Shown here: piece after piece, positions 1 through 17,297 of the stretch
Layout: each line of letters begins with the position of its first letter
Numbering within the stretch: position 1 is the stretch's first letter
Origin: a virus
Virus record (IMG/VR): IMGVR_UViG_3300040801_003453
Coordinates: 1 to 43,232 of that record
Reading direction: 5' to 3' (one strand)
Length of the DNA: 43,232 nucleotides
Notes under the pieces: model-generated
Database searches by the model: none
Seen by the model: the letters and a program-made list of their open reading frames with translations, nothing else
Told to the model about the DNA's origin: nothing
Program-made: the position numbers and the translations under genes

Positions 1-146
1 CCGACCGCCGAGCGGGCCTGATCCGTCCCCCAGGGCTGGACCCAGGGCAGGCGCCCGGCTTCAAGCTCGGCGATGATGCGGTCGGTGATCTCGGAATACA
101 GGGTGGCGCGGTCGCCCGTGGACCGCCGTGCGGATGTGCGGGACAT
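1..146 (-). CDS. ardC: ArdC-like antirestriction protein, N-terminal part (cut by window edge)
   Basis: The first 48 codons are visible and the rest lies left of the window. After a short basic leader the protein reads LYSEITDRIIAELEAG then LPWVQPWG, the hallmark start of the ArdC N-terminal ssDNA-binding domain. ArdC proteins are carried by conjugative plasmids and ICEs; they bind incoming single-stranded DNA and protect it from host restriction, and many have a C-terminal zinc metalloprotease-like domain, which cannot be checked here. The ATG at 146 is preceded by a GGGGAGAG ribosome-binding site. It follows the FseA-like gene on the same strand by 97 bp, which fits an ICE backbone. Family assignment is good despite the short fragment. 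Confidence 0.72.
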   Translation of the reverse strand, partial: MSRTSARRSTGDRATLYSEITDRIIAELEAGRLPWVQPWGTDQARSAV

Positions 147-243: not shown

Positions 244-1060
244 TCAGCGCAGAAGGTCGCGGTAGCCGCCGCCGACCATCCGGTCGCCGGCCCGCACGAG
301 GCGTTGCACACGCAGCCGCAGATAATCCGAGGTGCCGGCCCAGTCGTCGCGTACCCGCTCCGGGCCGAACAGGGCGGCGGCGATGTCCCGGTGGGAGGCT
401 CCCGCCGACCGGGCATCGTGGGCACGCAGCATGTCGGCCCAGCGGAGCGCGCGCCGTTCGGGCCGGTAAAACTGATCGGGCAGTGCGCCGGCGGCGCGCA
501 GGTGCAGGAACCGGCGCAGGGCGAGCACGCGCGGTTCGTCTTCCGGCGGCGGCCACACCGGAATGAGCAACCGGACCGGATCGCGTGACAGGCGGCTCGC
601 CATGACCTCGATCTGCAGGCGGCGGGGGCCGTCCAGGATCAGCAGATGCAGGCGCCCGTCCGGCTGGCGCAGCATGGCGATGGGCAGGGCCAGCCGGCGC
701 AGGTCCAGGGTCTCCGGGCCGTTGGCCTGGGCTTCGCTGGCGATGGTGGTCAGCACGATGGGCGCCTCTGCACTCGACCAGAACACCAGATCCTCGGTCT
801 CGTCCGCGAAACAGGACACCCCAGCGGGGGTCCAGCAGCGGCGTCGGCGTCACCGCCATGCGGGGCGCCGGATGCGGCCCCGGAAGCCGGCGGAAGCGCC
901 GGCGTCCCTGATGGGTCGATGCAACAAACTCGGGATTGCGTTTCAGCCACTGCCAGGCCCATGCGGCGCGGTCGAGGGACAGCAGGGGGTGATACGTCTT
1001 CGCGTTGCGCCAGTCGGGTGGCGGGAAGGGGCGTGGGGGAAAGCGTCTCGTCTCCGACAT
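244..1060 (-). CDS. fseA: FseA-like ICE excision activator (DUF6499 + DUF2285), read through a +1 ribosomal frameshift
   Basis: The ATG at 1060 has a strong AAGGAGG site 8 nt upstream. Frame 0 encodes an 84-residue DUF6499-type segment with DWRNAKTYHPLLSLDRAAWAW at about residues 16-36 and RWGVLF at the end. The protein then continues only in the +1 frame (stop at 244-246), giving FADETEDLVFW and a 187-residue DUF2285 domain; the fused product would be 271 residues. In Mesorhizobium ICEMlSymR7A the equivalent genes msi172 and msi171 are fused by +1 slippage of tRNA-Phe from UUU to UUC to make FseA, which turns on the excisionase gene rdfS. The same TTTC sits exactly at this junction (811-808). 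I therefore annotate one gene. The alternatives are a true frameshift mutation or a sequencing error. Neighbours ArdC and a tyrosine integrase fit an ICE. Confidence 0.72.
808..811 (-). other. Predicted +1 programmed frameshift site (TTT C) in the fseA-like gene
   Basis: Reading the minus strand, frame 0 is TGG GGT GTC CTG TTT CGC. Slipping tRNA-Phe by one base from TTT onto TTC makes the next codon GCG, so the protein runs WGVLF-ADETEDLVFW, which joins the two domains with no gap. This is the slip (UUU to UUC) reported for Mesorhizobium FseA. Frame 0 stays open beyond the site to the window edge, so the unshifted product has no visible stop in the window. Confidence 0.65.
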
Positions 1061-1487
1061 GGAACAGTCCTCCTTGCGATCCGGACCAGACTCCGCCCTG
1101 CCCGGCGCGCCCATGCGCGCAAGGGATCGAGTACGGCGGAGAGTCTTGGGGTGCGGCCGTTCTTGGCTGATGCGGCCCTATCGATAGTTTTCTATAGGGT
1201 CGTCAAGGATGGCTTCCACAAAACGCTGGTCTCTTGCCTCTTTCGCGGCGAAACGATACGGCACTTCAAAAAGAAACAAGTGTTTCATTCAAATATACGC
1301 AAATATATATAAAATACGAAGTCAACGCGGCTTGTCATATATCAATGGACATCGCCTTTCTTCATGCCAACATCAAAACTGGAGACGATGCCGGTTCGCA
1401 ACCGGCGTCAAGGTGTGTCGGCTGTTGGCGCGCAGAGAGCCGACGAGGGAGGGGGCATCGACCACCTGTGCTTTGGAGGCGAGTGCC
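1061..1487. promoter_or_regulatory. Divergent control region between the fseA-like gene and the AraC-family gene
   Basis: This 427-bp gap has no convincing gene. It is markedly AT-rich around 1265-1330, unlike its surroundings. It holds an inverted repeat CCCTAT...ATAGGG at 1176-1199 (containing the perfect palindrome CTATCGATAG), the dyad GAAACAAGTGTTTC at 1273-1286, and a direct repeat CAAATATA at 1290 and 1300, exactly one helical turn apart. A run resembling a -10 box (TATATAAAAT) lies near 1305-1315. The signals fit promoters and operators for the two divergent genes. No match to a canonical TraR box was recognised. Confidence 0.45.
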
Positions 1488-2366
1488 ATGCCCGAGAGTG
1501 TGCTCATCGATCTGGAAGAAAAGCCGTCGGCCTTATGCGATAGTACGGCCGAACGTTTGGTCGGCGACGGCCTGATTGTTTGTCGGTGTCGGTTCCCACC
1601 GCAACAGGAAGCCTGGATTTCGGTTCGCCAGACCATGGTGGTGCGGCCGGCGGCGCCCGTGACCGCTCGTTGGCGCCAAGTGGAGGACGAAGCCAATAAG
1701 GCGGTTCGAATGACACGCCAAGCGCTGCATCTGATTCCTCCGGGATCAGCGATCCGGGTCGAATGGGTTGGGGGTGGCCGGGCGCTGGTGTTGGCTCTGA
1801 CGGCGACGTTCCTGGACACGCATGTTGCCCCAGTGTTCGATGGCCGGGTGCCGCGCCTCGCGCCCCAGGCCATGATCCGGGATGCCGCGCTGGTCGGGAT
1901 GATGACGTGCTTTGAAGCGGCGCTCGACGGGTCGGAAGCTGCTGGCGTCCGTTCGTTGGGCCTTACAGGCGCCGCCTTCGGCCTGCGACTTTTCGACGTA
2001 TACGGCGAGGAGGAGGGCGGCGGCGGGTACACGACCGGCGGTCTTGGGGCATCCCGGCAGAGGCGGATCACGGCGTTCATCGACGGCAACCTGGATAGGC
2101 GGGTGTCATTGAATGAAATGGCGGGCGTCGTCGGCCTGGGGGCGTCGCATTTTCGGACTGTGTTCCGCGCGACCTTCGGCCAGTCTCCGTCCCGGTACCT
2201 GCATGAACGCCGGATCGAAAAGGCCAAGACGCTGCTGCTCGATCCGAACCGCACCATCGTCGACATCGCGCTGGAGGTCGGATACTCCAGCCACGGCCAT
2301 TTCACCACCGTGTTCCGCAAGGTGACCGGGACGACGCCGTCGCGGTTCCGGCTGGACCGATTGTGA
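1488..2366 (+). CDS. AraC-family transcriptional regulator
   Basis: The protein has 292 residues. The C-terminal 100 residues are a classic AraC/XylS double helix-turn-helix: RRITAFIDGNLDRRVSLNEMA, then GLGASHFRTVFRATFGQSPS, RRIEKAKTLLLD and DIALEVGYSSHGHFTTVFRK. The N-terminal 190 residues match no ligand-binding domain that I recognise. I chose the ATG at 1488 because GGAGG lies 8 nt upstream; the frame stays open further upstream but through an AT-rich promoter-like stretch. It is transcribed away from the fseA-like gene with a shared control region, so it may regulate the ICE or the defence cassette downstream, but nothing in the sequence fixes its target. Confidence 0.85.
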   Translation: MPESVLIDLEEKPSALCDSTAERLVGDGLIVCRCRFPPQQEAWISVRQTMVVRPAAPVTARWRQVEDEANKAVRMTRQALHLIPPGSAIRVEWVGGGRALVLALTATFLDTHVAPVFDGRVPRLAPQAMIRDAALVGMMTCFEAALDGSEAAGVRSLGLTGAAFGLRLFDVYGEEEGGGGYTTGGLGASRQRRITAFIDGNLDRRVSLNEMAGVVGLGASHFRTVFRATFGQSPSRYLHERRIEKAKTLLLDPNRTIVDIALEVGYSSHGHFTTVFRKVTGTTPSRFRLDRL

Positions 2367-2832: not shown

Positions 2833-3066
2833 ATGAAGAGATTGGCAAGATCGCAGAATCACAGCGGCCGGCGCACTCGCCATTACGTCGTCCGGTACGT
2901 CCTTGAGAAATTCTTGGAAGGGCATGAGGAACGCCACCTCACGCTGAAGCTAAAAGGGGTTAAGCGCAGAGTGAACACCGAAAGGCATATTACTGGGAAC
3001 TGGCCAGAGCAGGCCGGCAAAGCCGGCGCTACGGCCATCGGGATCGCGGGGGGGATTCGCCGATGA
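2833..3066 (+). CDS. Small basic protein of unknown function (uncertain)
   Basis: A 77-residue frame whose TGA overlaps the ATG of the methyltransferase gene (ATGA at 3063-3066). It is rich in Arg, Lys and His, with a possible amphipathic stretch HYVVRYVLEKFLEGHEERHL at residues 17-36. I recognise no family, and there is no helix-turn-helix like that of restriction-modification controller proteins. The ribosome-binding site before the ATG is weak. The overlap argues for translational coupling; the odd composition argues for a chance frame or a leader. It could also be a remnant of an older gene. Confidence 0.3.
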   Translation: MKRLARSQNHSGRRTRHYVVRYVLEKFLEGHEERHLTLKLKGVKRRVNTERHITGNWPEQAGKAGATAIGIAGGIRR

Positions 3067-5258
3067 GCATCGAAACTCGCTTCGATGTCCCCTTTGTCGC
3101 GGGGCTGGCGCTGCGCGAGAAGCAGATTCAACAGAATTATCGCCCCATCATTGCTGTCCACAAATGGTTTGCTCGGCGGCCTGGCAGCCTGTTCCGTGCC
3201 CTCGCCTTGGCCGAGTTCGGTGAGGCGCCGCTTGTCGATCTCTACTTCACCGGCAACGATTTTTCTGAACGCAAGGTCGCCGACCCCTTTATGGGCGGCG
3301 GCACACCCTTGATCGAGGCAAACCGCGTCGGCTGCGACGTGACCGGTTTTGATATCAACCCAATGGCCGCTTGGATTGTCCGCGAGGAAATCGAGCACCT
3401 GGACCTTGTCGCCTACAAAGCTGCGGCCGAACGCCTGCTCGCAGAGCTGCGCCAGGAGATCGGCCACCTTTATCTGACGGACTGTCCGCACTACAGCGAC
3501 ACTGATGTGCCGGTGAAGTATTTCCTTTGGGTAAAAGTGCTCGATTGCGCAGCATGTGGGAAAGAGGTCGACCTCTTCCCCGGCTATCTGGTGGCTGAAG
3601 ATTCCCGCCATCCCAAGAATGTCCTGGTCTGCCCCGCCTGCGGCGATCTTAACGAAGTAGACGACCGGTCTGCGCCAGGCGCCTGCCGTAGCTGCGATGC
3701 CGAGCTGCGCACCGAGGGGCCGGCTGGGCGGGGCCGGTGTGCTTGCCCACACTGCGGTCACGAGAACGAGTATCCGCGTGCCGGCGAAGGTCCACTGCGC
3801 CACCGTCCGTTCGCGATGGAGTATTATAACGCCAACCGCAAGACAGAGCACAAAGGCCGCTTTTTCAAGAAGCCGGATGCAAAGGATCTTGCGCGCGTCG
3901 CCGAAGCCGAGCGGCGGTGGCGGGAGGCAAATGCACGTTTCGTTCCCGAGCAAGAAATCTTGTCCGGTGATGAAACCGATCGGCTGCATCGCTGGGGCTA
4001 CAGCCACTATCGGCAAATGTTCAGCGCCCGCCAGCTTCTCGGTCTTGAGTTGAGCTGCCGGTTCATTTCGCAGATTGAGGATGAGCGCGTGCGCCGCGCG
4101 CTTGCAACGAACCTTTCAGACCTACTGCGGTATCAAAATCTTCTGTGCCGCTATGATACGTGGGCGCTTAAGTCTCTCGACATCTTTTCCGTGCACGGTT
4201 TTCCGGTGGGTCATGTACAGTGCGAGTCCAACCTTCTCGGGATCGTCAACGGCAATGGCACCAATGTCGGCTCGGGCGGCTGGACGAACATCATCGACAA
4301 GTACGCGAAGGCCAAGCGCTATTGCGACGCGCCGTTTGAGGTGAAGCGGCAGGGGTCGCGGAACGTTCAGGTTCCGGTGAAGGGCGAATGGATCGGCGAG
4401 AAGCTCAATGGCAGCCGGCGACGCAGTATTGCGATCCACTGCGCCGATGCGACCACCGTCGAACTCGAACCGAACAGCCTTGATGCGGTCTTCACCGACC
4501 CGCCATACTTCGGCAACGTGCAATACGGCGAGCTGATGGACTTCTGCTATGTCTGGCTGCGTCGGCTCGCTGGCGATGAGTCCGAAGGTTTCTGGCGGCC
4601 GTCTACGCGCACGGAGGAAGAGCTGACCGGCAATGTCACGAAGTCGCGGGGCCTTGCGCATTTCGCGGAAGGACTTGCGCGAGTCTACCGGCATATGGCG
4701 GTAGCCCTAAAGCCTGGGGCGCCGCTCGCGTTCACCTACCACCACAACAAGCTCGACGCTTATTCCGCTATCGGCGTCGCTATCCTCGACGCCGGATTGA
4801 CTTGCTCAGCCTCGTTTCCGTGTCCTGCGGAAATGGGCGGTTCCATCCACATTCACGGCACTGCTTCGTCGATCATTGATACCGTCTTCGTCTGCCGGGA
4901 CACCGGGGAAACGCCCGGCCAATGGCTGTTCACGTCGGGAGATGAACTCGCGCCCATCCTCGCCAACGACCTTACGCAACTAACCGACGCCGGCCGCAAG
5001 CCGACTGCGGGCGATACACGTTGTATCATCTTCGGCCACCTGACGCGCATGGCGATCTGGAACCTCCGGGAGGGTTGGGATGTCGCCTTGCCCACCGACG
5101 AAAAGCTTGAGCGATTCTCTGAAGCCGTGCGCCGCCTTGCTGATCCCGAAGAGCTGCTAGGCAGGCTGACAACCGGGCCGGTGACGCACCCGCCGGCCGG
5201 ACCGCTCTTCTCGGCTGCGATCACACTGCAAAGGGCCAGCAATGCCGTTGCGTTTTGA
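3063..5258 (+). CDS. Zn-ribbon DNA methyltransferase (COG1743/DUF1156-like), adenine- or N4-cytosine-specific
   Basis: The 731-residue protein starts with a conserved block NYRPIIAVHKWFARRPGSLFR (about 25-45), as in DUF1156/COG1743 methylases. The SAM-binding motif ADPFMGGGTPLIEA lies at 73-86 and the catalytic DPPYFGN at 479-485, so the order (SAM motif first) is that of gamma-type amino-methyltransferases. Between them are four CxxC pairs (C162/C165, C190/C193, C208/C211, C228/C231), consistent with two zinc ribbons, which probably aid target binding. It should methylate an exocyclic amino group in DNA to mark self. It overlaps the next gene, a PD-(D/E)XK nuclease, by 17 bp, which points to a restriction-modification pair. 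No BREX genes (pglZ, brxC) are present, so it is unlikely to be PglX. Confidence 0.85.
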   Translation: MSIETRFDVPFVAGLALREKQIQQNYRPIIAVHKWFARRPGSLFRALALAEFGEAPLVDLYFTGNDFSERKVADPFMGGGTPLIEANRVGCDVTGFDINPMAAWIVREEIEHLDLVAYKAAAERLLAELRQEIGHLYLTDCPHYSDTDVPVKYFLWVKVLDCAACGKEVDLFPGYLVAEDSRHPKNVLVCPACGDLNEVDDRSAPGACRSCDAELRTEGPAGRGRCACPHCGHENEYPRAGEGPLRHRPFAMEYYNANRKTEHKGRFFKKPDAKDLARVAEAERRWREANARFVPEQEILSGDETDRLHRWGYSHYRQMFSARQLLGLELSCRFISQIEDERVRRALATNLSDLLRYQNLLCRYDTWALKSLDIFSVHGFPVGHVQCESNLLGIVNGNGTNVGSGGWTNIIDKYAKAKRYCDAPFEVKRQGSRNVQVPVKGEWIGEKLNGSRRRSIAIHCADATTVELEPNSLDAVFTDPPYFGNVQYGELMDFCYVWLRRLAGDESEGFWRPSTRTEEELTGNVTKSRGLAHFAEGLARVYRHMAVALKPGAPLAFTYHHNKLDAYSAIGVAILDAGLTCSASFPCPAEMGGSIHIHGTASSIIDTVFVCRDTGETPGQWLFTSGDELAPILANDLTQLTDAGRKPTAGDTRCIIFGHLTRMAIWNLREGWDVALPTDEKLERFSEAVRRLADPEELLGRLTTGPVTHPPAGPLFSAAITLQRASNAVAF

Positions 5259-6261
5259 TATCGATTACGACGACCCCGGTATTGCGTGGGAGCCGCTGGT
5301 CGATGAGGTCTTTGGCGAGCTGAGATCCAGCTTCCTTGAAATGCCGAAGGGCGAAGGCTTCATAGACTACCCGACCTTTGAAAAAGGCTATCAGGCCATT
5401 AGGCGCCATACGGACTCCTTCGCCGCTCTCACGGCCGAGAATGTGCTCTCCGCCGTTCACAACGTGCCGATCGCCTTTATCGTCTTTCGGTGCATCCTTG
5501 GATTTTCCCCGCCCGAGTGGGCTTACATCACGACCGAGATGACCGGCGTCGGCGTAGATCAGGGCGCGGCGAGGTCTATTGACCGCAAGTTCCGCATGAA
5601 CCCTTTGGGCTCGGCGAGCGCGGGCACTGGTGTGACGGCCACCCGCATCCGCGCAATGATTGACGCAGGCGTACGCACGATTCACCAGGGCGCAGGAACG
5701 GTATCTCCCGGCATCGTCCACCGGCTGGACAAGGCAGACACCGCCAAAGGGCAGCCCAGCCTGCAAAGCATCGCTGATCTTGGCGCGCCCTATCCTGTGC
5801 TTCTTTACGAGCGCTACCTGGGGCGCCCCTATGCAACCCACCGCGATTCCGTAAGCGAACTTGTGGGGGAAGTGGTTGAGGTCGCAGTCAAGAACGTGCT
5901 CTCCGATGCGAAGGTCAGTTTTCGGGAGACGAAGCGAGCAGAGCGCATTCCCGGCTTCGACCAAGCTCCGGACTTCATCGTTCCCGATGAATTCACCCCG
6001 GTCGCATTGATTGAGGCGAAGCTGACCGAGGACGACGGTACGGCGCGGGATAAGGTTGCCCGCGTTCAGCGGCTGCGAACGTTGCGCGATGCCGAAAGCA
6101 AAGATTACGATGTGATCGCGTGTATCGCCGGGCGTGGCTTCAAGGTCCGCCGTGAAGACATGCGCCGCCTTCTTCAGGCGACGGACGGCAAGGTATTCAC
6201 CCTCACCACCATGCACTTTTTGATCGACCATACCCGTATTCGGGAGTACCGTGTCCGATGA
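5242..6261 (+). CDS. Putative restriction endonuclease, PD-(D/E)XK fold
   Basis: The 339-residue protein has a C-terminal nuclease core: a helix with E210 (SELVGEVVEVAVKNVL), then D243 in QAPDFIVP, then E258-A-K260 in ALIEAKLTED, followed by basic residues (RDKVARVQRL). This is the D-(E)xK arrangement of restriction enzymes and Holliday-junction-like nucleases. The N-terminal 190 residues resemble no domain I know and may bind the target. The start at 5242 has AAGGG a few bases upstream and overlaps the methyltransferase stop, so the two are co-translated. The natural reading is the cleaving partner of that methylase, cutting unmodified DNA. The name is inferred from motifs and context; there is no recognisable named family. 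Confidence 0.7.
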   Translation: MPLRFDIDYDDPGIAWEPLVDEVFGELRSSFLEMPKGEGFIDYPTFEKGYQAIRRHTDSFAALTAENVLSAVHNVPIAFIVFRCILGFSPPEWAYITTEMTGVGVDQGAARSIDRKFRMNPLGSASAGTGVTATRIRAMIDAGVRTIHQGAGTVSPGIVHRLDKADTAKGQPSLQSIADLGAPYPVLLYERYLGRPYATHRDSVSELVGEVVEVAVKNVLSDAKVSFRETKRAERIPGFDQAPDFIVPDEFTPVALIEAKLTEDDGTARDKVARVQRLRTLRDAESKDYDVIACIAGRGFKVRREDMRRLLQATDGKVFTLTTMHFLIDHTRIREYRVR

Positions 6262-6306: not shown

Positions 6307-7521
6307 ATGTCGGAGGCACAGAAAGTCCATAGTGCGGCGCAATCCGCTGCTGGCTATCTGTACCAAGCCCGCCTCGCGCTGGCCGAGGCACTTCGCTACG
6401 CCAATGCCGATTCGGGTATCGAAATTGCGGTTGAGAAACTCGACGACGTATCCTTCGAGAAGGATGGAAGTGCGCTAGAGCTTCTGCAGACCAAACATCA
6501 CCTCAAGAAATCAGGCGACCTGACCGACGGCAGCGTCGATCTTTGGAAGACTCTGAGGGTCTGGGCTGACGCGACAAAAGCCGACCCCTCTCTCACCGGT
6601 CGCACGCGCTTTGTGCTGGTTACGACCGCGCAGGCGCCTGCCGGGTCGGCCGCATCGTATCTGAGACCCGCCGCCGCAGGCGGCCGCGATCCTATTGCAG
6701 CTGAGAACCTCCTGGTGAAGGCGGGCGTTGCTTCGCAGAATGCCGCGCTTCTCAAAGCGATTGCCGCCTTCATGGCGCTGACGGAGGAGATGCGCAGAGC
6801 TCTCATCGACGTCACCGAAGTCATCGACGGCGCGCCGCTGATAGCCGATATGGAGGCGCTGATCGAAAAGCGGCTGCGCTTGATTGCTCCGCGCGGACAA
6901 GTAGCGCTTGCGCGCGAGCAGCTTGAAGGCTGGTGGTGGCCGCGGATTTGTACGGCGCTACAGTGTGAGACGCCCGGCACGATTCCCATTCTCGAGGTTG
7001 AGCAGAAGCTCGATGACATCCGCGACAGCCTCAAGCGCGACGCCCTGCCGTTCGACATGGAGCATGTGGATCCGCCGCAGGACGCACTCGATACGCTGGA
7101 TGAAATGCGATTCGTGCGCCAACTTCAGTGCGTTGGAGTTGGCGCGATGCGCTTGCAATTCGCGAAGCGCGACTTCTACCGAGCATCGGCGCAGCGCTCG
7201 CATTGGGCGCGCAAGAATCTGCTCTTTGACGAGGAAGTTGGCCGGTTCGACAAGACGCTGATCGAGGAATGGCAACCGCGTTTTGCGCAGATGTGCGACT
7301 GTCTTGGCGACGCTTGTGACGAGCCGCCAGTGCGCGAAGCCGGCCAGAAGCTCTATGGCTGGGTTGAGACCGACGCGCGCTTTCCGATCCGCGCGACGGT
7401 AAGTCGGTTCCTCAATGTCGGTACCTACCATATCCTCGCCGATGACCTCCGCGTAGGCTGGCATCGCGACTACCTATCCTTATGCTGCGAACCGGATGGC
7501 GGGGGCTCCAATGGCGGATGA
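6307..7521 (+). CDS. ABC-three-component (ABC-3C) system effector: nuclease-like N-terminus plus ABC-3C C-terminal domain
   Basis: The 404-residue protein opens with a restriction-endonuclease-like segment: D47 in EKLDDVSFEK and E58-LLQ61-T-K63-HH, the QxK variant of PD-(D/E)XK seen in several defence nucleases (compare the Cap4/DUF4297 type). The C-terminal part has the ABC-3C hallmark FYRASAQRSHWARKNLLF then FDKTLIEEWQPRF (about 296-338). ABC-3C systems pair such an effector with a small middle component and an SMC/RecN-like ATPase; those two follow directly, with 11- and 4-bp overlaps. It probably cuts nucleic acid when the ATPase senses invading DNA. The 45-bp gap after the restriction gene contains no terminator, so it is likely part of the same transcript. 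Confidence 0.75.
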   Translation: MSEAQKVHSAAQSAAGYLYQARLALAEALRYANADSGIEIAVEKLDDVSFEKDGSALELLQTKHHLKKSGDLTDGSVDLWKTLRVWADATKADPSLTGRTRFVLVTTAQAPAGSAASYLRPAAAGGRDPIAAENLLVKAGVASQNAALLKAIAAFMALTEEMRRALIDVTEVIDGAPLIADMEALIEKRLRLIAPRGQVALAREQLEGWWWPRICTALQCETPGTIPILEVEQKLDDIRDSLKRDALPFDMEHVDPPQDALDTLDEMRFVRQLQCVGVGAMRLQFAKRDFYRASAQRSHWARKNLLFDEEVGRFDKTLIEEWQPRFAQMCDCLGDACDEPPVREAGQKLYGWVETDARFPIRATVSRFLNVGTYHILADDLRVGWHRDYLSLCCEPDGGGSNGG

Positions 7522-8026
7522 AACCCGTTGGAGCGTCCCCTGGGCTGAGCGTCCACCGGAGGAAGCCCGGATTTTCAATCCGGCGTTTTGCGGCGAGCTG
7601 ATCGGGCGTACCGTCTGCGAGTACCATCGAACCCGGCAGGCCGCACTTGGCGTGACGACCGCATTTCTCGTTCTTCCTCTGACGTTGCACAGGCCTACTC
7701 GCGACGCCCTGCCGGGGCGGGCGAACACGGCTTTCGCAGGCTGGGTCGCTCAACATGCAGCGCTGCTGGCTGAGCTACCGGAGCTTGCAAGACGTCTGAG
7801 GCCTGTCAGTCGCGAAGGGTTGATGTTCGCCGTCCATCAGCGGTTTCTCGCGTTTGCAGATGACGGGCTTGTGCCGGGCGTGCGGCCGATTCGCGCAAGT
7901 GCCCGATTTGTTGCAACCACCGATGAAGTGAATGCGGCCCGCAACGCCGCAGGCCTTCTTGGCCGCTGGTTCGCCGGTCAGGGGACGCAAGCCTCTGTCC
8001 TGCAAGGGATGGGGGTCGCACCATGA
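7511..8026 (+). CDS. ABC-three-component system middle component
   Basis: A 171-residue protein with the family's typical features: EEARIFNPAFCGELI near the start, then FLVLPLTLHRPTRDALP, an AFAGWVAQH helix and a Leu-rich stretch. Middle components link the ABC ATPase to the effector. I prefer the ATG at 7511, 6 nt after a run of five G, over the ATG at 7496. It lies inside the end of the upstream gene, and its stop overlaps the ATPase start (ATGA), so all three subunits are translationally coupled, as expected for a fixed-ratio complex. Confidence 0.8.
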   Translation: MADETRWSVPWAERPPEEARIFNPAFCGELIGRTVCEYHRTRQAALGVTTAFLVLPLTLHRPTRDALPGRANTAFAGWVAQHAALLAELPELARRLRPVSREGLMFAVHQRFLAFADDGLVPGVRPIRASARFVATTDEVNAARNAAGLLGRWFAGQGTQASVLQGMGVAP

Positions 8027-9966
8027 CGCTACAGATTCGCTCGATCTCCGTCTATTCCCGCAATGGCGAGCGCCGGGACGTGAATTTCAGGCTTGGCGCA
8101 CTCAACATCGTTAGCGGCGCGTCAAAAACGGGAAAATCTGCCCTACTTGATATCGTCGATTATTGCTGGGGCCGCGAAGAATGCACCGTGCCTGAAGGCG
8201 AAATTCGCAGAAGCGTTTCCTGGTTCGCCGTCCATTTTGACAGAGATGGCGAGGGCATAGTGATCGCCCGCAAGAACCCTGGACCGGCGGGGCGCGCAAG
8301 CGAAGAAGTTTACTTCGCGCGCGGCGTGGAGGAACTGCCACGCGATGCGAGCACATTCCAGAAGAACATCACCGGCGAGGGGCTCAAAGCGCAGCTTTCG
8401 GCGACTCTTGGGATATCAGAAAACATCCATGTACCCGAAGAGGGATCGACACGGCAGCCGCTCAGAGCCTCAGCACGGCACGCCATTCTCTTCTGCCTGC
8501 AAGCACAGGACGAGATCGCCAACCGGAGGCTGCTCTTTCACCGGCAGGGAGAGCAGTTCTTGCCGCAGACAATTCGCGACGCGCTGCCCTATTTTCTTGG
8601 CGCGGTCGATGAAGACCATTTCCTGGCGCTGAAGCGCTATCAAGACGCACGGACCCGGTTGCGGCGGCTTGAGCGCGAGCATGCGGAGTCGCAGGCGCTC
8701 ACACGCGATTCCTCCGTGTCCGCTCGCGCCCTCCTGACTGAGGCGCAGCGCGCCGGTCTCGTTCCGGCGGATGCGCTGGCCGAAGATGCGAGCGGCGTTC
8801 GCCAACTCTTGCGCAGGGCTGCCGGCCCGCTCCCGGTGTCCTTCTCGCCGATGGACGATCCGGAAGCCGATCTCACGGTGCTTGACGAACGTCGCCGTTC
8901 TCTCCTGGGGCAGCTTCAGGAACTCCGAGAAGAGATCGCAGACGTCACACGCTTGAGCCGTGAGGCCTCTGAGTTTGAAGCTGAAGCCCGGGAGCAAGAG
9001 GCGCGGCTTGCATCCATCGGGCTGATTGCGGGGGCGGACGAGGATGTACGCGACACCTGCCCCTTATGCGAAAGTCATCTCGCAACTCCGATCCCAAAAG
9101 TCACTGAAATCAGAGCTTCGCTCGCAAACGTGCAAACGCAGCTTCGCTCCGTGCGGCGCGATGCACCACGCCTTCAGGAGCGGCTGGCCGGACTAGAGTC
9201 GCGTCGATCCGACGTGAACGAGCAGCTCCGAAACGTCCATTCCGACATAACAAAGCGCATCCAGGACAACGAGCGTCTTCGGCTCGAACAACATCAGTTC
9301 GCGGAGCAGGCGCGCGTTGCCGGGCGAATTGCCTACTATCTTGAGAATGTAACAGTCGTCGCCTTGGACAGCGATCTTTCGCGCAGACTTGAGCAACTTC
9401 GCGCCGAAGTCAAGGAACTTCAGGCCGTGCTCGATGACGATGCCACGCAGGAGCGGTTGATGACTGCCCTTAGTCTGATTGGACGTGACCTGACCGACTT
9501 GGCGACGGAACTCGGGCTTGAGCACGGGGAGAACCCGCTCCGGCTCGACCTCAAGCATCTTACCGTGGTGGCTGATAACGATGACGGTCCGCTCTCACTG
9601 GCCCAGATGGGTAGTGGCGAGAACTGGGTCGGCTACCATGTCGCTGCGCACCTGAGCCTGCACAAGCTTTTCCGCCGTCGGAAACGCCCAGTTCCCGGTT
9701 TCCTTATGCTCGACCAGCCCTCACAGGCGCACTACCCGCCCGAGCGTGATGAGGGGGGACGTATCGACGGGCTTCCCGACGAAGACCAAGCTGCCGTGCG
9801 TCAGTTGTTCAGGTTGCTGTATCAGTACTGCACTCAGCGTGCGCCGGGCATGCAAATCATTGTTGCCGATCACGTTGAGCTTCTCGACGACTGGTTCAGG
9901 GAGTCGATTGCCGAGCTCTGGCGCGACGGCATTGCTTTGATACCGCAACATTGGTTTAGGGAGTGA
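8023..9966 (+). CDS. ABC-3C system ATPase, DUF3732 family (SMC/RecN-like)
   Basis: The 647-residue protein has a Walker A motif GASKTGKS at 32-39, long charged coiled-coil arms, a Rad50-like CPLC hook at C346/C349 (DTCPLCESH), a signature-like MGSGENWVG near 530, and a Walker B FLMLDQPSQ at 560-568. The residue after the Walker B Asp is Gln (D564-Q565) where most ABC ATPases have the catalytic Glu. This is characteristic of the DUF3732 family rather than a defect. It is the presumed DNA-end or structure sensor of the ABC-3C complex and would control the nuclease effector two genes upstream. It ends 130 bp before the Gabija-like pair. Confidence 0.85.
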   Translation: MTLQIRSISVYSRNGERRDVNFRLGALNIVSGASKTGKSALLDIVDYCWGREECTVPEGEIRRSVSWFAVHFDRDGEGIVIARKNPGPAGRASEEVYFARGVEELPRDASTFQKNITGEGLKAQLSATLGISENIHVPEEGSTRQPLRASARHAILFCLQAQDEIANRRLLFHRQGEQFLPQTIRDALPYFLGAVDEDHFLALKRYQDARTRLRRLEREHAESQALTRDSSVSARALLTEAQRAGLVPADALAEDASGVRQLLRRAAGPLPVSFSPMDDPEADLTVLDERRRSLLGQLQELREEIADVTRLSREASEFEAEAREQEARLASIGLIAGADEDVRDTCPLCESHLATPIPKVTEIRASLANVQTQLRSVRRDAPRLQERLAGLESRRSDVNEQLRNVHSDITKRIQDNERLRLEQHQFAEQARVAGRIAYYLENVTVVALDSDLSRRLEQLRAEVKELQAVLDDDATQERLMTALSLIGRDLTDLATELGLEHGENPLRLDLKHLTVVADNDDGPLSLAQMGSGENWVGYHVAAHLSLHKLFRRRKRPVPGFLMLDQPSQAHYPPERDEGGRIDGLPDEDQAAVRQLFRLLYQYCTQRAPGMQIIVADHVELLDDWFRESIAELWRDGIALIPQHWFRE

Positions 9967-10096: not shown

Positions 10097-12082
10097 ATGA
10101 TAATTGAAAAGATAGGTTTAACAAATTTCCGTTGCTTCGGTCCGAAGGGGACGACGATCAGGCTTCGCAGATCGGTCACAGCGTTCGTGGGCGCCAACGG
10201 CTCCGGAAAAACCGCCGCGTTTCAGGCTCTATCGCGGCTTTTTGGCGTCTCGTCAACGCAGCGTGCAGTGCGGCGGCAGGACTTCCATGTGCGCGCTGAC
10301 CAGGATGAGCTTGAGTCAGGAGCCACCCTGTCAATTGAAGTTTTGTTTTCGTTCCCCGAGCTAAAAGGGCTCAACAAGGATGATGCCGAAGACGCTGTTC
10401 CGGAATTCTTCCAACAAATGGCCGCTTCCGCACCCGGCGCTCCCCTCAAAGCGAGGATGAGACTTCAGGCGATTTGGATCGACGACGGCACCCCGGACGG
10501 GAGCATCGACGAGGATCTCCGCTGGATCACAACGCTTGAAGACGAATTCGAGTGGGATAAATGTAAGCGGGTGCAGGCGGTGGAGCGCGGCTCGATCCAG
10601 CTCATATATGTCCCGGCCGCCCGAGACGCAGCGGCGCAGGTGACGTCATTGCTCAAGGGGCGGCTTTGGCAGGCGGCACGATGGTCAGATAAATTCCGCG
10701 ATGATAGCGCGGCAAGCGCCCAAAGCATTCAGCAGCTATTCGAACGCGAGAAGCCCGCACAGTTTGTCATCGAGCGGCTCACCAAGCGCTGGCGGCAGGT
10801 CCATGAGGCTGATACAGACACAACGCCTGTTCTTCGCCTGGTCGAAAGCCGGTTCGAGGAACTGGTCCGCAAAGCTGAATTCGCGTTCTCTCCCGATGAG
10901 ACCGGGCGGGAACGTGGGCTCGCGGACCTGAGCGATGGCCAGCGCTCGCTCTTTCATATTGCGCTTACCGCAGCGACTTTGGAAGTCGAGAAGGACGTGT
11001 TTGCGCAGGCCGCCGACGAAAGCGCCTTTGATCAGGACAAGCTGCGGCGGACCAGCCTCACCTTCCTTGCAATCGAGGAACCGGAGAACAGCCTTTCGCC
11101 ATTCTTTCTCTCGCGCATCGTCGCGCAGGCGAGAGAAATCGGCGCGCTTGCATCGGCTCAGGTCGCCCTGTCAAGCCACTCGCCGGCGATCCTCAGCCGT
11201 ATCGAACCTGAGGAGGTGCGCTACTTTCGCCTGAACCGCCGACGGCGCCTCACCTTTGTCCGGCGGATCACGATGCCGGAAGGAGACGACGAGGCGAGCC
11301 AGTATGTGCGGCTCGCCATCAGAGCATATCCAGAGCTGTACTTCGCCCGCTTTGTCATCCTCGGCGAGGGAGATTCCGAACGTCTTGTGATCCCGCGCGT
11401 AGCAGAGGCGATGGGCGTTCAGCTCGACCCTTCTTTCGTGCCGATCGTGCCGCTCGGCGGGCGGTATGTCGGCCACTTCTGGCGGCTTCTCAATGATCTT
11501 GGCATTCCCCATGCGACCCTGCTGGACCTCGATCTTGGCCGTGGACACGGTGGCGCGAACCTTATCGCCGATCTCGTGGAAAAGCTGAACGAGATTGACA
11601 ACGATCTGAGCGAGAATTCGCTGGTCGAGGCCGGCACCATCGATCCCGGCGAGTTGGATGATGTGGCGGACAACGATCTGCTGGACGATGGGGGGAGCCA
11701 CGACTGGCTGCAAGCGCTCAGGGAAGAGGGGATATTCCTTTCGTTTCCGCTGGATATCGATTTTGCCATGCTCAGCGCTTTCCCGAAAGCCTATCAGTAT
11801 CCGAATCCCGAAGGCCGTGGGCCGCGCGGCGGCGCTTCGATCCGGGACAAGAAGGCTGTCACCCTCAAGACAGGCGGCGATCCGGACCTGTACGACGATG
11901 ACTATGATGATGAATTCAAGTGGTATCCATACCTCTTCCTGAGCAGAAGCAAGCCCGAGACTCATATCGCCGCGCTTGCGCGTATAAAGAAGGATGATCT
12001 TTCCAGAAACGCACCTGCCGAGATCAAGGCGCTTATTGGGCATGTAAAGCAGGCGCTCGGCCTTGAGGACGGCGATGCATGA
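10097..12082 (+). CDS. gajA: Gabija GajA-like OLD-family nuclease (ABC ATPase + TOPRIM)
   Basis: The 661-residue protein has an N-terminal ABC ATPase: IGLTNFRCFG, Walker A GANGSGKT at 32-39, signature LSDGQRSLFHIAL near 276, Walker B with AIEEPENSLSP (E327/E328) and a switch-like SSHSPAIL. A TOPRIM nuclease follows: ILGEGDSER (E424, D426) and LLDLDLG (D477/D479), the acidic residues that bind metal in class 2 OLD nucleases. GajA of Gabija is an ATP-inhibited, sequence-specific nickase that becomes active when nucleotides fall during infection. It is directly coupled (ATGA) to a UvrD-like helicase, the Gabija arrangement. It is somewhat longer than the characterised GajA, so a neighbouring class 2 OLD subgroup is possible. 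Confidence 0.8.
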   Translation: MIIEKIGLTNFRCFGPKGTTIRLRRSVTAFVGANGSGKTAAFQALSRLFGVSSTQRAVRRQDFHVRADQDELESGATLSIEVLFSFPELKGLNKDDAEDAVPEFFQQMAASAPGAPLKARMRLQAIWIDDGTPDGSIDEDLRWITTLEDEFEWDKCKRVQAVERGSIQLIYVPAARDAAAQVTSLLKGRLWQAARWSDKFRDDSAASAQSIQQLFEREKPAQFVIERLTKRWRQVHEADTDTTPVLRLVESRFEELVRKAEFAFSPDETGRERGLADLSDGQRSLFHIALTAATLEVEKDVFAQAADESAFDQDKLRRTSLTFLAIEEPENSLSPFFLSRIVAQAREIGALASAQVALSSHSPAILSRIEPEEVRYFRLNRRRRLTFVRRITMPEGDDEASQYVRLAIRAYPELYFARFVILGEGDSERLVIPRVAEAMGVQLDPSFVPIVPLGGRYVGHFWRLLNDLGIPHATLLDLDLGRGHGGANLIADLVEKLNEIDNDLSENSLVEAGTIDPGELDDVADNDLLDDGGSHDWLQALREEGIFLSFPLDIDFAMLSAFPKAYQYPNPEGRGPRGGASIRDKKAVTLKTGGDPDLYDDDYDDEFKWYPYLFLSRSKPETHIAALARIKKDDLSRNAPAEIKALIGHVKQALGLEDGDA

Positions 12083-13938
12083 GCCGAGTACGTCCCAAAG
12101 ACTGGAGGCCCCAAGGCGTCGATGACCTTGAACCGCGTGCATGGGAGGCGCTGCGACAGACCGAGAGGAGCGTCCTGGTCACGGCGGGCGCGGGCGCTGG
12201 AAAGACAGAATTCCTTGCGCAGAAGGCGACCTATCTTTTCCAGACCGGCCTCTGCCCTGCCCCCAAACGCATCCTTGCGATCAGCTTCAAGCGCGACGCG
12301 GCCCGCAATCTCGCGGAACGGGTTGCCAGGCGCTGTCCGCCCGAGCAGGCGCGCCGTTTCAACTCCTACACCTTTGACGCATTCGCGAAGAGCCTTGTGG
12401 ACCGGCTTCGTGCGGCGATTCCCGCCCCTTTCTGCCCTCCAGTTGGTTACCGCGTAGTGATGCCGCGCGGGCAGGATTTCAGTCGTTTTCTGGACACGCA
12501 AAATTTCCGAAGCGTAGACGTCAAGCAGTTCGAGCGCGCTATCGCCCGGACACGATTGCCAATCGGCAATGACGGTTCAGCCCTTAAACGCGCCGTTGCC
12601 GCGTACTGGGACGCTCAATACAATGATCAGCACGATGTTCTGCTCTCGTTCCCGATGATCAACCGGCTTGTCGAATTGCTCATACAGGAAAACCATTCAA
12701 TTCTGAAGGCGCTGCGCCTCACCTATCCCGTCGTATTTCTCGACGAGTTTCAGGACACCACTTTTGCACAGTTTGAGCTCCTGTGCACAGCGTTTGACGG
12801 CAGAGAAGCCATCTTCACGGCGGTCGGCGATGATAAGCAAAGGATCATGGTCTGGGCCGGAGCGATGCCGGACGCCTTCGCGCAGTTTGAGCAGCACTTC
12901 GCGGCAGAGCGCATATCACTGGTCTGCAACCGGCGCTCGCACGAGGATCTCGTGCGGATTCAGCATGTCATCGCGAGCAGGATCGACCCCAACGTCGAGG
13001 AGCCGGAAGCACGAGCCGATCGGTTGGTCGACGGCGAAGTCGCGGCCATTTGGGAATTCGCGACGAAGGAGGATGAAAGCAATTGCCTCGCGCAGTGGAT
13101 CGAGCGCGAGGTGCAGGCTGGCCGCGTCAAGCCGCACGATATTGCAATCCTTGTGCGCATGCACGCCAACGAAGTGGAGGGCCAGCTCTCTCCGGCATTC
13201 GCCAACCGGGGGCTGCGACTACGGAATGTAGCGCGAAACGTGGGCGATATTTCCATTCAGGACTTGCTTAGTGAGGACATGTCCCAAATCCTCCTTCGGC
13301 TGTTGCGCCTTGGCGCTACCAGCCGGAGTCCCGAGGACTGGAACGCTGCTCTCCTCGATTTGCAGTTTCTTGAAGCCGTCGATCCGGCCGACGACATGGG
13401 ACAGCAGCATATACAGGAGCGCCTTCAGAGGTTTGTACGAGAGATGCGGCGAACCATGAGACTGCTTGACCCGGTCCCAGAATCCGCATGCAAGGCATCC
13501 CAGGCGGCTCTTGATTTCATTGGAGCCGAAGTTCTGCGCCGGGCCTTTCCCTCTTACCAGCGACAACCCGATTTTGATCGCGTCAAGAACGGGTTCACGC
13601 TGCTCCTCCAGGAGTCCCTCCTGCATGCGCAATCCTGGTCAGGCGCGCTCGAGGAATTCGAGGGCGTCGGTCAGATCACCCTCATGACGATCCACAAGAG
13701 CAAGGGGCTTGAGTTCCATACGATCATTTTCTGCGGGCTCGATAACCAGACGTGGTGGAGCCTCACGCCCAATCGCGGCGAAGAGCTAAACTCTTTCTTC
13801 GTTGCCTTTACACGTGCCAAGCAACGGGCCTTCTTCACTCTATGCGCTGAGCGTGGACAGCGTGTTGCCTGGATCGAAAACCTTCTTGCACCGGCTGGCG
13901 TCTGCCGCATTGGTGTAGAAGAGTCGGAGGGTGAGTAG
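12079..13938 (+). CDS. gajB: Gabija GajB-like UvrD/Rep-family helicase
   Basis: The 619-residue SF1 helicase carries Walker A TAGAGAGKTEF (36-43), motif II FLDEFQDTT (D222-E223-F-Q-D), motif III GDDKQRIMVWAGA, an Arg-rich motif (CNRRSHEDL), motif V LMTIHKSKGLEFHTIIF and motif VI FFVAFTRAKQR. All core helicase motifs are intact. Its ATG overlaps the stop of the OLD nuclease gene. In Gabija, GajB binds GajA and is thought to respond to DNA ends or nucleotide use. There is no RecB-like C-terminal nuclease. It ends 79 bp before the convergent integrase gene. Confidence 0.8.
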   Translation: MSRVRPKDWRPQGVDDLEPRAWEALRQTERSVLVTAGAGAGKTEFLAQKATYLFQTGLCPAPKRILAISFKRDAARNLAERVARRCPPEQARRFNSYTFDAFAKSLVDRLRAAIPAPFCPPVGYRVVMPRGQDFSRFLDTQNFRSVDVKQFERAIARTRLPIGNDGSALKRAVAAYWDAQYNDQHDVLLSFPMINRLVELLIQENHSILKALRLTYPVVFLDEFQDTTFAQFELLCTAFDGREAIFTAVGDDKQRIMVWAGAMPDAFAQFEQHFAAERISLVCNRRSHEDLVRIQHVIASRIDPNVEEPEARADRLVDGEVAAIWEFATKEDESNCLAQWIEREVQAGRVKPHDIAILVRMHANEVEGQLSPAFANRGLRLRNVARNVGDISIQDLLSEDMSQILLRLLRLGATSRSPEDWNAALLDLQFLEAVDPADDMGQQHIQERLQRFVREMRRTMRLLDPVPESACKASQAALDFIGAEVLRRAFPSYQRQPDFDRVKNGFTLLLQESLLHAQSWSGALEEFEGVGQITLMTIHKSKGLEFHTIIFCGLDNQTWWSLTPNRGEELNSFFVAFTRAKQRAFFTLCAERGQRVAWIENLLAPAGVCRIGVEESEGE

Positions 13939-14017: not shown

Positions 14018-15265
14018 TCACGTTGCGACGAGCATCATGACATGCGCGGCCCACCGCTCCAATGCAGCGCGACGATCTGGCATGTATGCTGCCCAGTTAT
14101 AGGTTCCTGCGACGCCGGCCTTGGCACCACTAATATGATTGATCGTCGCTTCAACCACATGAGGCAGGATGCCTAGCTTGTCGTGCATGTGCGTGCTCAT
14201 CGTGCGCCGAAGGTCATGCAGCACGAACGCCGGCATGGGGTCTCGACTATCGGCCTCGCGCCGATCCGCAATCGCCGCGTCCAAGCGCGCCTTGCCCTTG
14301 GAAAACCCGGTGACGGACGTTCGGCCGGTCGTGGTCCAGACGAACGCCGATGCCGCCATGCGCGGCACCGCCGACAGAATCTCGACCACGGGAGCGGTCA
14401 GGGGCACGACATGGGGCAGACCGTTCTTGGTCCGGTTCGCGGGCAGGTGCCATTCCGGGGCCTCGCCCTTTAGGTCCTTGATCTCTGACCACTGCATACC
14501 GGCCACCTCGCTTTCACGCTGGCCCGTCAGCAGCATGACGCGGAACAGACCACCGAACGGATGACCGATGGCCTCGCACCCTCCCCACACGTCCGCGATC
14601 TCTGTGTCATCAAGCCATCGGTCGCGCCGGACGTTTCGGGTCGGCGGCTTCACGCGGTCGGTCGGCACCACCTCAATGATACCGCGTTCCGCTGCCCAGC
14701 CAAAAAACCGTTTCAGGTACGCCAGGGTCCGGTTCGCCATCGTCTCGGCGCCCCGGTCAACCATGCGGTCCAGCAGGTCGTGAACGTCGCGCCGGGTGAT
14801 GTCGGCGAGCGGTCGGCCTCGCCACGCTTCCACATCGGCACCCTGGAGGGCGCGCCGGTATTCCTTGGCCGTCGCAGGTCGGCATTGCCGCGCCACATAC
14901 CGATCAAGGAACTTATCGGCCACAACGCCGAAGGTGTTGGCCCGTGTCTCTTGTTCGGCCTCTTTCTCTGCTTCTCGGATCTGGCGCGGGTCGCCGCCGG
15001 CCGCCGCGACCTCCGACCACTCGCCGGCCTTGGCGCGGGCCTCGGCCAGCGTCAGACCGGACCCGCCTCCGACCTTGGCCCGGCCGAGCGACAGGCGCGT
15101 CAGCTTGCCGTTGATCCGCACGAACATGAAGTAGGTCTTGGTCCCGCCCCTGGAGACGCGGACGCCGAAACCGCCCATCACGGTGTCGAACACGTCGGCC
15201 TGTAGCTTGTCGGTCGGCGCCTTCAGGGCCTCAACCGCCTTGGCGGTCAGCTTAACCTTCGCCAT
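14018..15265 (-). CDS. int: Tyrosine integrase, P4/DUF4102 family
   Basis: The 415-residue protein begins with the DUF4102 arm-binding domain (LTAKAVEALKAP, GGFGVRVSRGGTKTYF), followed by a SAM-like core-binding domain (ANTFGVVADKFLDRYV) and the catalytic domain: R in LLTGQRESEVAGMQW, K in NRTKNGLPHVVPL, LHDLRRTMSTH, INHISG and the nucleophile in GTYNWAAY. All catalytic residues are present. I prefer the ATG at 15265 (GGAG 9 nt upstream) to an upstream TTG at 15292. It lies 170 bp from the tRNA-Lys att site and is transcribed away from it, so it is the likely recombinase of the island to its left. Such enzymes typically recombine at tRNA 3' ends. Confidence 0.9.
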   Translation of the reverse strand: MAKVKLTAKAVEALKAPTDKLQADVFDTVMGGFGVRVSRGGTKTYFMFVRINGKLTRLSLGRAKVGGGSGLTLAEARAKAGEWSEVAAAGGDPRQIREAEKEAEQETRANTFGVVADKFLDRYVARQCRPATAKEYRRALQGADVEAWRGRPLADITRRDVHDLLDRMVDRGAETMANRTLAYLKRFFGWAAERGIIEVVPTDRVKPPTRNVRRDRWLDDTEIADVWGGCEAIGHPFGGLFRVMLLTGQRESEVAGMQWSEIKDLKGEAPEWHLPANRTKNGLPHVVPLTAPVVEILSAVPRMAASAFVWTTTGRTSVTGFSKGKARLDAAIADRREADSRDPMPAFVLHDLRRTMSTHMHDKLGILPHVVEATINHISGAKAGVAGTYNWAAYMPDRRAALERWAAHVMMLVAT

Positions 15266-15431
15266 TGTCAGCCGCTCCGAAATAGGTAACAAATAGGTAA
15301 CGCCTTGGGCCGAGAATGGCCGTTACCTAATGTTATGCCACGATAGGCAGGAGCGTCGCAACGCCTTGTTCTGCATACAGTTATGCCGGTTCGGACGTGC
15401 TGATATGATATGCGGCGATAATGTTTTTTGA
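15266..15431. promoter_or_regulatory. Integrase promoter and attachment-site arm region with AGGTAAC repeats
   Basis: Between the integrase start and the tRNA fragment, ATAGGTAAC occurs twice in direct orientation (15282-15290 and 15293-15301, 11 bp apart). TAGGTAACG (15294-15302) is matched by a perfect inverted copy CGTTACCTA at 15321-15329. GTTATGCC also occurs twice (about 15332 and 15380). Iterated short repeats beside an att core are what integrase arm sites or excisionase sites look like, and the first pair overlaps the expected int promoter. Confidence 0.45.
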
Positions 15432-15480
15432 CTGACTCTTAATCAGCGGGTCCAAGGTTCGAGTCCTTGTGCGCCCACCA
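15432..15480 (+). other. att site: 3' end of a tRNA-Lys(CTT) gene
   Basis: Visible are most of the anticodon arm (loop CTCTTAA, anticodon CTT at 15438-15440, 3' stem TCAGC), the T arm (CAAGG-TTCGAGT-CCTTG, 15453-15469), the acceptor 3' strand TGCGCCC, discriminator A and encoded CCA. The 5' acceptor strand and D arm are absent, and the first anticodon-stem pair is already mismatched (A31-C47 by window position 15431/15447), so identity starts near 15432. This is a duplicated tRNA 3' end left by site-specific integration, not a working tRNA gene. Its orientation puts the integrated element on its left. Confidence 0.8.
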
Positions 15481-15488
15481 ATGAAAAC

Positions 15489-15521
15489 AAGGGGTTGCGG
15501 GGTTTCCTGCAACCCCTTTTT
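15489..15521 (+). terminator. Intrinsic terminator downstream of the tRNA-Lys 3' end
   Basis: AAGGGGTTGC (15489-15498) pairs perfectly with GCAACCCCTT (15509-15518) around a 10-nt loop and is followed by a T run. It sits 8 nt after the CCA, the usual place for a tRNA gene terminator, which suggests that the DNA right of the att site is the original downstream flank of tRNA-Lys. Confidence 0.75.
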
Positions 15522-15648
15522 CATGTCTGGCTCCCTGCTGGGTACCGGCTGGGTAACGGTGTTTCGAGGCGCTCCCGCGTGAGGATGAAGCCCGCCCGCG
15601 GCCAGCGACGATCCTGAACCGCGCCCTCCCTCTGTAGCGCGGCGGGCC

Positions 15649-15777: not shown

Positions 15778-16128
15778 ATGCACATCCGAACAGTCGCTTG
15801 CGCTGGCTTGGTGGCCCTGACCCTGGCCGGCTGTGGGGAAGAGCCGCAGAGCGTGCAGGACCTCAGTCCTGGTTACACAGTCGCCGAGGCCACGACCGCC
15901 GTGATCGATGCCTACGGCAACGAGGGCATGCGCCGCACCCTGGATCTGGCCATGGACCGAGCCACGATGGAGCGGATCAACTATGACCGCATCACCATAT
16001 GGGGTCTGCTGAACCTGACGACCCCGACGATCCACCACCCGCTGGGGCAGCAGATGATCGCGGAATATTGTCAGGATGACGACGCACGACGGTACTCGAC
16101 CGATTTCTGCCTGGGTGCGCTGATGTAG
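15778..16128 (+). CDS. Small lipoprotein of unknown function
   Basis: The 116-residue protein starts with a lipoprotein signal: MHIRT, a hydrophobic stretch and lipobox LAGC, so Cys19 would be lipidated. The rest is mildly acidic and contains two further Cys (in AEYCQDD and DFCLGA) that could form a disulfide. The ATG at 15778 follows GGGGAGA by 8 nt. It faces the phage tail genes, ending 5 bp from gene D, and is the only plus-strand gene near the phage module. It may be a prophage cargo gene (for example a surface change or superinfection exclusion) or a host gene beside the insertion. I recognise no family. Confidence 0.6.
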   Translation: MHIRTVACAGLVALTLAGCGEEPQSVQDLSPGYTVAEATTAVIDAYGNEGMRRTLDLAMDRATMERINYDRITIWGLLNLTTPTIHHPLGQQMIAEYCQDDDARRYSTDFCLGALM

Positions 16129-16133
16129 GATCA

Positions 16134-17297
16134 TCACGCCCCCGCTGCCTGGGCGGTGGCGGCGGCGTCCAGGGGCGCGCCGTCCAGACCGATGACCTGC
16201 ACACCGTCCTCGGTCTCCACCACGCGCCAGCCGGGGACGGCGGCGGCGCCCGGCGTGGTGGTGGCGGGGCCGGCGGCGGTGGTGGCCGGGGGTGGGGTTT
16301 CGGCCTCCACCTCTGACCGGAAGCCCGAGGCGTCGATGCGGTGCGTGACGCTCTGAATGGCCCAGCGGCCGTCGGCCGCGTCTCCGAACCCCTCCAACAT
16401 CAGATCGCCGCCGGCCATCAGGGCCGGGCGGCCCTCGACGGTCAGGCGCAGGGTCTCCTTACGGCGCCCGGCCTCCTGCGCGGTGCCGGCGGCGCGCGCG
16501 GCGGCCTGGGCGGGGCCACGGGCACCGTGGCGCACCTCGACCGGGGGGCCGTCGCCGGTGCCGGTGACCACCTCCCAATAGGTCACCCCCGCATCCAGGT
16601 CGTGGCGCGGCGCGGACACGCTGGCGGCCATCTCGCGGTCCTGAGCGGTGATCCACCACGTCAGGGCCTCGTCATGACGGATGACCATCCCGTCCAGCGG
16701 CCGGCCGGTGCCGGCGCTGGTGCCGGCCCCGACGCGGGTGACCACCAGACGGCCATCGGCGACCTTCAGCGCCGCGCCCAACGGCGTGGCGTGGCGGGCA
16801 ATCAGGTGCAGGTCGCTCTCGGCCGCCTGATCCACATGGCCGATGGTCAGGGCCGCCAAGTCGGGCGCGACCACCGCCGTCAGGCCATTGTCGGCCGCGA
16901 TGCGCCCGACCAGGTCGCCCAGCGTGGCAGCCCCGAACGAGCGCGAGCGGGGGGCGCGCAGCGGACCGCGCAGATCGGCGGCCCGGCCCCGGATGGTCAT
17001 GGTCAGCCCCTGGCCCTGGTTGCCGTACTGGACCTCATCGACCACGAATGCCGGCATATCCACCAGCCCGGTTTCCAGCCAGCCCAGCGCCACCCGCAGG
17101 GAGGCGCCCCGGCGCGGCACGGCGATGGCGCGGTCGCGCCAGTCCAGGCGCAGGTCCAGTTCGTCGCTGTCGGCCTTCAGGTTGTCGGTCACCGACAGGC
17201 TGAGCAACACCGGGCGCACGCGCGGCGTGATGTCCTGATCGCCGACGGTCAGGCGCCAGTCCGGGGTCCAGCGGGGGCGGTCGAGTGGTCCCGGCAT
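16134..17297 (-). CDS. D: P2 gpD-like tail hub protein (late control gene D family)
   Basis: The 387-residue protein has the gpD-type pattern: an N-terminal WRLTVGDQDITPRVRPVLLSLSVTDNL, then a LDLRLDWRDRAIAVPRRGASLRVALGW block, and GLTMTIRGRAADLRGPLRAPRSRSF. This family forms the base of the contractile tail tube (T4 gp27-like hub). The C-terminal 60 residues are a Pro/Ala/Thr-rich tail. It is last in the tail operon, after U and X, the P2-like order. The ATG at 17297 is 4 bp past the gene X stop; the longer frame upstream is a shadow of gene X. Confidence 0.85.
   Translation of the reverse strand: MPGPLDRPRWTPDWRLTVGDQDITPRVRPVLLSLSVTDNLKADSDELDLRLDWRDRAIAVPRRGASLRVALGWLETGLVDMPAFVVDEVQYGNQGQGLTMTIRGRAADLRGPLRAPRSRSFGAATLGDLVGRIAADNGLTAVVAPDLAALTIGHVDQAAESDLHLIARHATPLGAALKVADGRLVVTRVGAGTSAGTGRPLDGMVIRHDEALTWWITAQDREMAASVSAPRHDLDAGVTYWEVVTGTGDGPPVEVRHGARGPAQAAARAAGTAQEAGRRKETLRLTVEGRPALMAGGDLMLEGFGDAADGRWAIQSVTHRIDASGFRSEVEAETPPPATTAAGPATTTPGAAAVPGWRVVETEDGVQVIGLDGAPLDAAATAQAAGA

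Follow-up and report, generated by a model that had tools for sequence, protein, structure and literature searches.

A two-frame fseA gene with a predicted +1 frameshift site in a Roseospira/Rhodospira-type element that carries Lamassu and Gabija defence genes

The fseA locus and described relatives

The activator FseA (msi172-msi171) of ICEMlSymR7A from Mesorhizobium japonicum is encoded as DUF6499 and DUF2285 parts that lie in two reading frames and are joined by a +1 shift. Conserved +1 programmed frameshifting in FseA has already been published (PMC10359603, PMC5882170), with 4709 homologues described, approximately 61% of them divided by a conserved +1 site, and with such genes occurring across the alpha-, beta- and gamma-proteobacteria (PMC10359603). 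The frameshift described here therefore belongs to a known type, and the possible variant is a branch of these genes that appears to be without QseM and linked to an AraC-family gene. RovC of Yersinia (PDB 6xz5), a regulator of a type VI secretion system (PMC10359603), has by sequence the same two-domain architecture as joined FseA, but no role as a frameshifted activator of excision is known for it.

The window, that is, the whole stretch of 43,232 nucleotides that was analysed, is a virus-collection record that comes without a host genome. When its fseA locus (Table 1) is read with C808 skipped, the minus strand encodes an FseA/RovC-like product of 271 amino acids, which matches PF20109 over residues 16-84 (E = 5e-10) and PF10074 over residues 180-271 (E = 3.7e-23) and has RovC 6xz5 as its top PDB match (E = 6.7e-8). 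The AWQWLKRN segment of the N-terminal DUF6499 domain corresponds to the AWEFLRRN-like helix of FseA-type activators. With DUF6499 at the N terminus, DUF2285 at the C terminus and a +1 offset after WG(L/V), the predicted product classes as an FseA-type activator, in agreement with the sequence-only reading.

Table 1 Features of the window
Feature	Positions	Strand	Remarks
ardC-like gene start, 3' of fseA, cut by window end	1..146	-	ArdcN + MPTase-PolyVal in L009
fseA 3' half (middle region + DUF2285 / PF10074 RovC DNA-binding domain)	244..807	-	+1 frame, GCG 807 to TGA 246-244
Shift site TGG GGT GTC CTG TTT CGC	806..823	-	TTT = 811-809, skipped base C808
fseA 5' half (DUF6499 / PF20109)	809..1060	-	frame 0, ATG 1060 to TTT 811-809; 84 aa
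Shine-Dalgarno AAGGAGG, 8 nt 5' of fseA ATG	1069..1075	-	unchanged in L009 and L011
Palindrome CCCTATAGAAAACTATCGATAGGG upstream of fseA	1176..1199	-	unchanged in window, L009 and L011
AraC-family regulator, divergent from fseA (start uncertain)	1488..2366	+	similar DNA in same place in L009 and L011-L014
Adenine methyltransferase-like gene	3063-5258	+	
Gene without family match	5242-6261	+	
Lamassu-type defence genes	6307..9966	+	LmuA 6307-7521, LmuC/MC3 7496-8026, LmuB 8023-9966
Gabija defence genes	10097..13938	+	GajA 10097-12082, GajB 12079-13938
Tyrosine integrase (Arm-DNA-bind_3 + Phage_integrase)	14018..15292	-	
tRNA-Lys(CTT) gene 3' half, adjoining integrase	15432..15478	+	attachment-site fragment

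In this locus CTG 814-812 and TTT 811-809 belong to frame 0, while the +1 frame is closed on the 5' side of the site by TGA 852, its nearest upstream stop, so that a shift must take place 3' of TGA 852. Homology places it at TTT-C, the junction column being common to the window and the other aligned split homologues. The locus is thus predicted to be one gene kept in two frames and joined by a +1 skip at TTT-C, and the earlier claim that halves in different frames join at TTT C was right in both coordinates and site. Automatic annotation would split or miss genes of this type.

No frame-0 stop was found 3' of the slip up to the window end: frame 0 is open across the whole DUF2285 half (244-808) and into ardC, which lies directly downstream of fseA, unlike in ICEMlSymR7A. 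This frame is long in relatives too, and ribosomes that did not shift would add a long arginine-rich tail to the product of the 5' half. In the Mesorhizobium homologue L007, in contrast, frame 0 stops 7 codons past the slip. Selection for an open frame 0 was considered and rejected, since frame 0 lacks conservation and would be free of stops with P = 0.10 in a synonymous-codon simulation; we therefore take it as a by-product of base composition.

Conservation of the +1 site and selection on both halves

No relatives of the window were found among the viral contigs searched and no near match among phage records. Its closest relatives are Roseospira and Rhodospira genomes, at 95% (L009), 94% (L010), 92% (L011), 60% (L012), 59% (L013) and 54% (L014). 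All six loci show TGG GGN GTC CT(G/C) TTT CGC with the frame changing after TTT; TTT CGC is constant in Roseospira and Rhodospira, and the adjacent codons differ (GGT/GGC, CTG/CTC). The proposed identity with the Mesorhizobium site was borne out as well, L007 carrying TGG GGN NNN NNN TTT CGC and sharing TTT CGC with the window.

A wider sample of homologues was assembled from PF10074 matches in 15 of 73 genomes in one draw and 14 of 240 in a second, together with matches on plasmids. Throughout 20 split loci, the window included, the second half lies in +1 relative to the first, never in +2, and TTT stands at one alignment column; breakpoints are accordingly not random. The only +2 case in the set of split loci is the decayed L020. 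Hand checking added six split loci, five with TTT C (L002, L021, L031, L049 and L053) and one from Azospirillum with TGT C (L008), which brings the intact split loci to 26, all of them +1 and none +2. Of these 26, 25 have TTT as the shift codon, with C next in 24 and T in one, L008 being the sole intact split homologue without TTT at the junction. TTT accounts for 82 of the 286 Phe codons in window genes, and clustering at 50% identity reduces the 20 aligned split loci to 11 groups, so that the chance of TTT throughout is 0.287^11, or about 1e-6, a rough value because the codon usage of the window stands in for that of all loci. Homologues fused in one frame also exist (for example, L029, L032 and L035), in line with the published account, and in some fused homologues the halves meet at the same place as in the split ones. 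L038, a near-copy of L051, has the same TTT CAC site with the DUF2285 half back in frame 0, and its middle would be misread.

The same alignments bear on whether the locus could instead yield two separate proteins, the DUF2285 half being initiated internally, for instance from GTG 819-817, which follows the GGGG of the WG codons, and pairing with the DUF6499 half. Such a GTG does stand 8 nt 5' of the slip, behind a G-rich stretch, in the window, L016, L017 and L018, but it is missing in L012/L019 and L014, where GGC replaces GGT, and in the split loci L046, L047 and L048 the +1 frame contains no ATG, GTG or TTG between the upstream stop and a point 120 nt beyond the slip. With this GTG lost in some relatives and no start codon close to the junction in three split ones, internal initiation is very unlikely, and the existence of homologues whose halves are fused in one frame at the same place argues further against it.

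Both halves of the gene are under purifying selection. Comparison of the window with L016 (R. navarrensis) gave dN/dS of 0.19 for each half, the first being read in frame 0 and the second in +1; for the first and second halves, comparison with L018 gave 0.21 and 0.24, and comparison with the more distant L019 gave 0.42 and 0.23, whereas reading the second half in the abandoned frame gave ratios above 1.7 in every pair. These values point to constraint on both fseA halves (approximately 0.2 against close relatives) and not on the abandoned frame. On a tree of 28 proteins, three changes suffice to explain the split or fused state; with so few changes, the split is old and has been kept.

Truly decayed relatives exist, with a second frameshift in L014/L020, an in-frame stop in L004 and a missing 5' part in L010/L015, and they raise the possibility that the window gene is itself a pseudogene, broken by a one-base change, whose halves persist by chance or shared ancestry. 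The damage in these copies lies elsewhere than at the shift site, however, and 26 intact homologues shift in the same direction, 25 of them at the same site. Taken with the strong ribosome-binding site and with dN/dS of about 0.2 for each half when close relatives are compared, this makes decay highly improbable and agrees with the earlier proposal that the split is retained by selection. A sequencing or assembly error, conceivable for a window that is one virus-collection record, has a negligible probability and is refuted for the family, since the independent assemblies L009, L011, L012 and L013 are split at the same base. In Rhodospira trueperi, two damaged fseA copies occur in one genome, L014 with its second frameshift and L010 without its 5' part.

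Predicted target, inputs and mechanism of FseA

The published FseA box is a sequence of 28 bp with two inverted hexamers 16 bp apart (PMC10359603). An rdfS-like gene was found in four relatives (G001-G004), and its promoter carries in each a perfect CTCGAAAAC-N10-GTTTTCGAG repeat of 28 bp with 16 bp between the hexamers, which ends 67-68 bp 5' of the rdfS ATG and has arms that are constant and a spacer that varies between genomes. This repeat fits the published box and is a predicted FseA site; it lies on a different contig from fseA in all four genomes. Open reading frames resembling traF, msi107 and rlxS follow rdfS in G001 and G004, and in G004 an S26 peptidase of TraF type and a DUF3363 protein, which we take as the putative relaxase, were confirmed by Pfam together with trb genes. 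The relatives of the window thus resemble ICEMlSymR7A in that a 28-bp inverted repeat precedes an operon of rdfS-traF-msi107-rlxS type. Many other alphaproteobacteria carry an rdfS-like gene directly 3' of fseA, often with a repeat of 27-29 bp. Neither an FseA box nor a recognisable rdfS was found in the window, so the target of FseA is known from its relatives only.

The inputs to fseA appear to differ from those of ICEMlSymR7A, in which traR/traI2 lie beside fseA and the circuit includes the antiactivator QseM. A search model was built from QseM-like proteins, which consist of DUF2285 alone; it detected a match in each of 10 other FseA genomes, and five of these had played no part in building it. 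The same model found QseM in none of five Roseospira/Rhodospira genomes and not in the window, an absence that is provisional because the genomes are drafts, which may be incomplete. No traR/traI was met adjoining fseA in the window or L009, where an AraC-family gene stands instead; similar DNA and open reading frames occur in L012 and L013. Plasmids of Sphingomonas and Sphingobium have a LuxR gene and an AHL synthase gene in the place of this AraC-family gene.

The AraC-family gene is a candidate input to fseA, and the palindrome CCCTATAGAAAACTATCGATAGGG may be an operator of fseA. We raise tentatively, as a reading that could well be wrong, that the Roseospira/Rhodospira circuit has been rewired, with QseM and the quorum input gone, the AraC-family regulator in charge and the +1 frameshift as the main remaining brake on excision of the Lamassu/Gabija element. 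The apparent absence of QseM offers a natural system in which to test the role of the frameshift alone, and if the circuit has indeed been rewired, this brake could be studied apart from QseM. A 36-codon open reading frame upstream of fseA (1178-1288) ends in the palindrome and is probably not a gene, since its ATG is not kept in L009.

In the mechanism that we propose, translation would begin at ATG 1060 and yield the DUF6499 half; on TTT 811-809, with CGC in the A site, the P-site tRNA-Phe would move forward by one base (UUU to UUC), and the minority of ribosomes that shift would proceed in the +1 frame to yield full-length FseA, a RovC-like transcription activator. FseA would be expected to bind the 28-bp inverted repeat before rdfS-traF-msi107-rlxS and so start excision and transfer, the frameshift acting as a translational brake on the activator. 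We consider this whole explanation, from one two-frame gene and a slip at TTT to activation at the FseA box with the frameshift as brake, to be very probable. Its basis is what can be read from the genomes, namely the split, its site and conservation, the purifying selection on both halves, and the rdfS operon and repeat in close relatives; from these we infer shifting in this organism, its rate, the movement of the tRNA and the standing of the window element as a transferable ICE.

The release factor RF2 (prfB) is autoregulated through a +1 programmed frameshift at CUU UGA C, where a stop codon occupies the A site. Like RF2, fseA has two frames that would be joined by a +1 shift during decoding, but its A site would hold a sense codon, CGC, with no stop close by. 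No RNA structure beyond that of shuffled sequences was found 3' of the slip (z = +1.05), which counts against the mechanism, as do the missing frame-0 stop, the lack of TTT at the L008 junction and the lack of an FseA box in the window. The G-rich TGGGG before the shift site is common to other FseA genes, and such a stretch may stall translation, as suggested in 2023 (PMC10359603).

The element and its defence genes

The Lamassu and Gabija genes sit between fseA and the integrase, in a region that varies among relatives. There is good support for viewing the window as a mobile element that has an FseA switch. The more specific claim of the sequence-only reading, that the gene lies on an ICE, stood in part: an integrase and a tRNA-Lys attachment fragment are present, whereas the window yielded neither an rdfS nor an FseA box, and no relaxase or type IV secretion system was found among the window genes scanned. 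Trb type IV secretion genes, the DUF3363 protein and the S26 peptidase lie on contig C36 of G004, with homologous DNA on C141 of G001 and C24 of G002, and these contigs are separate from those with fseA. The element may be an ICE whose transfer would spread the defence cassette, with the frameshift setting the rate of spread. These observations extend a documented frameshift switch to Roseospira/Rhodospira-type elements with anti-phage genes.

Two elements probably meet in the window at a single tRNA site; no second copy of the tRNA-Lys fragment was found there. Within 15432-15564 an element end with AACAAGGGGTTGCGGGG...TGGGTAACG repeats comes after the tRNA-Lys fragment, and the same element end (AACAAGGGGTTGCGGGG...TGGGTAACG) also follows full tRNA-Lys(CTT), tRNA-Lys(TTT) and tRNA-Thr genes in relatives. 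To the right of the junction (16134-41255) lie Mu-like phage genes, mostly on the minus strand, for portal, F-like head protein, sheath, tail, baseplate J and lysis functions. A tRNA-Pro call at 16113-16205 overlaps a phage gene and was taken as false. Around fseA in L009 (4791-20095), other candidate defence genes are found, including those for a PDC-S06-type ATPase, an HNH nuclease and a RecD2-like helicase.
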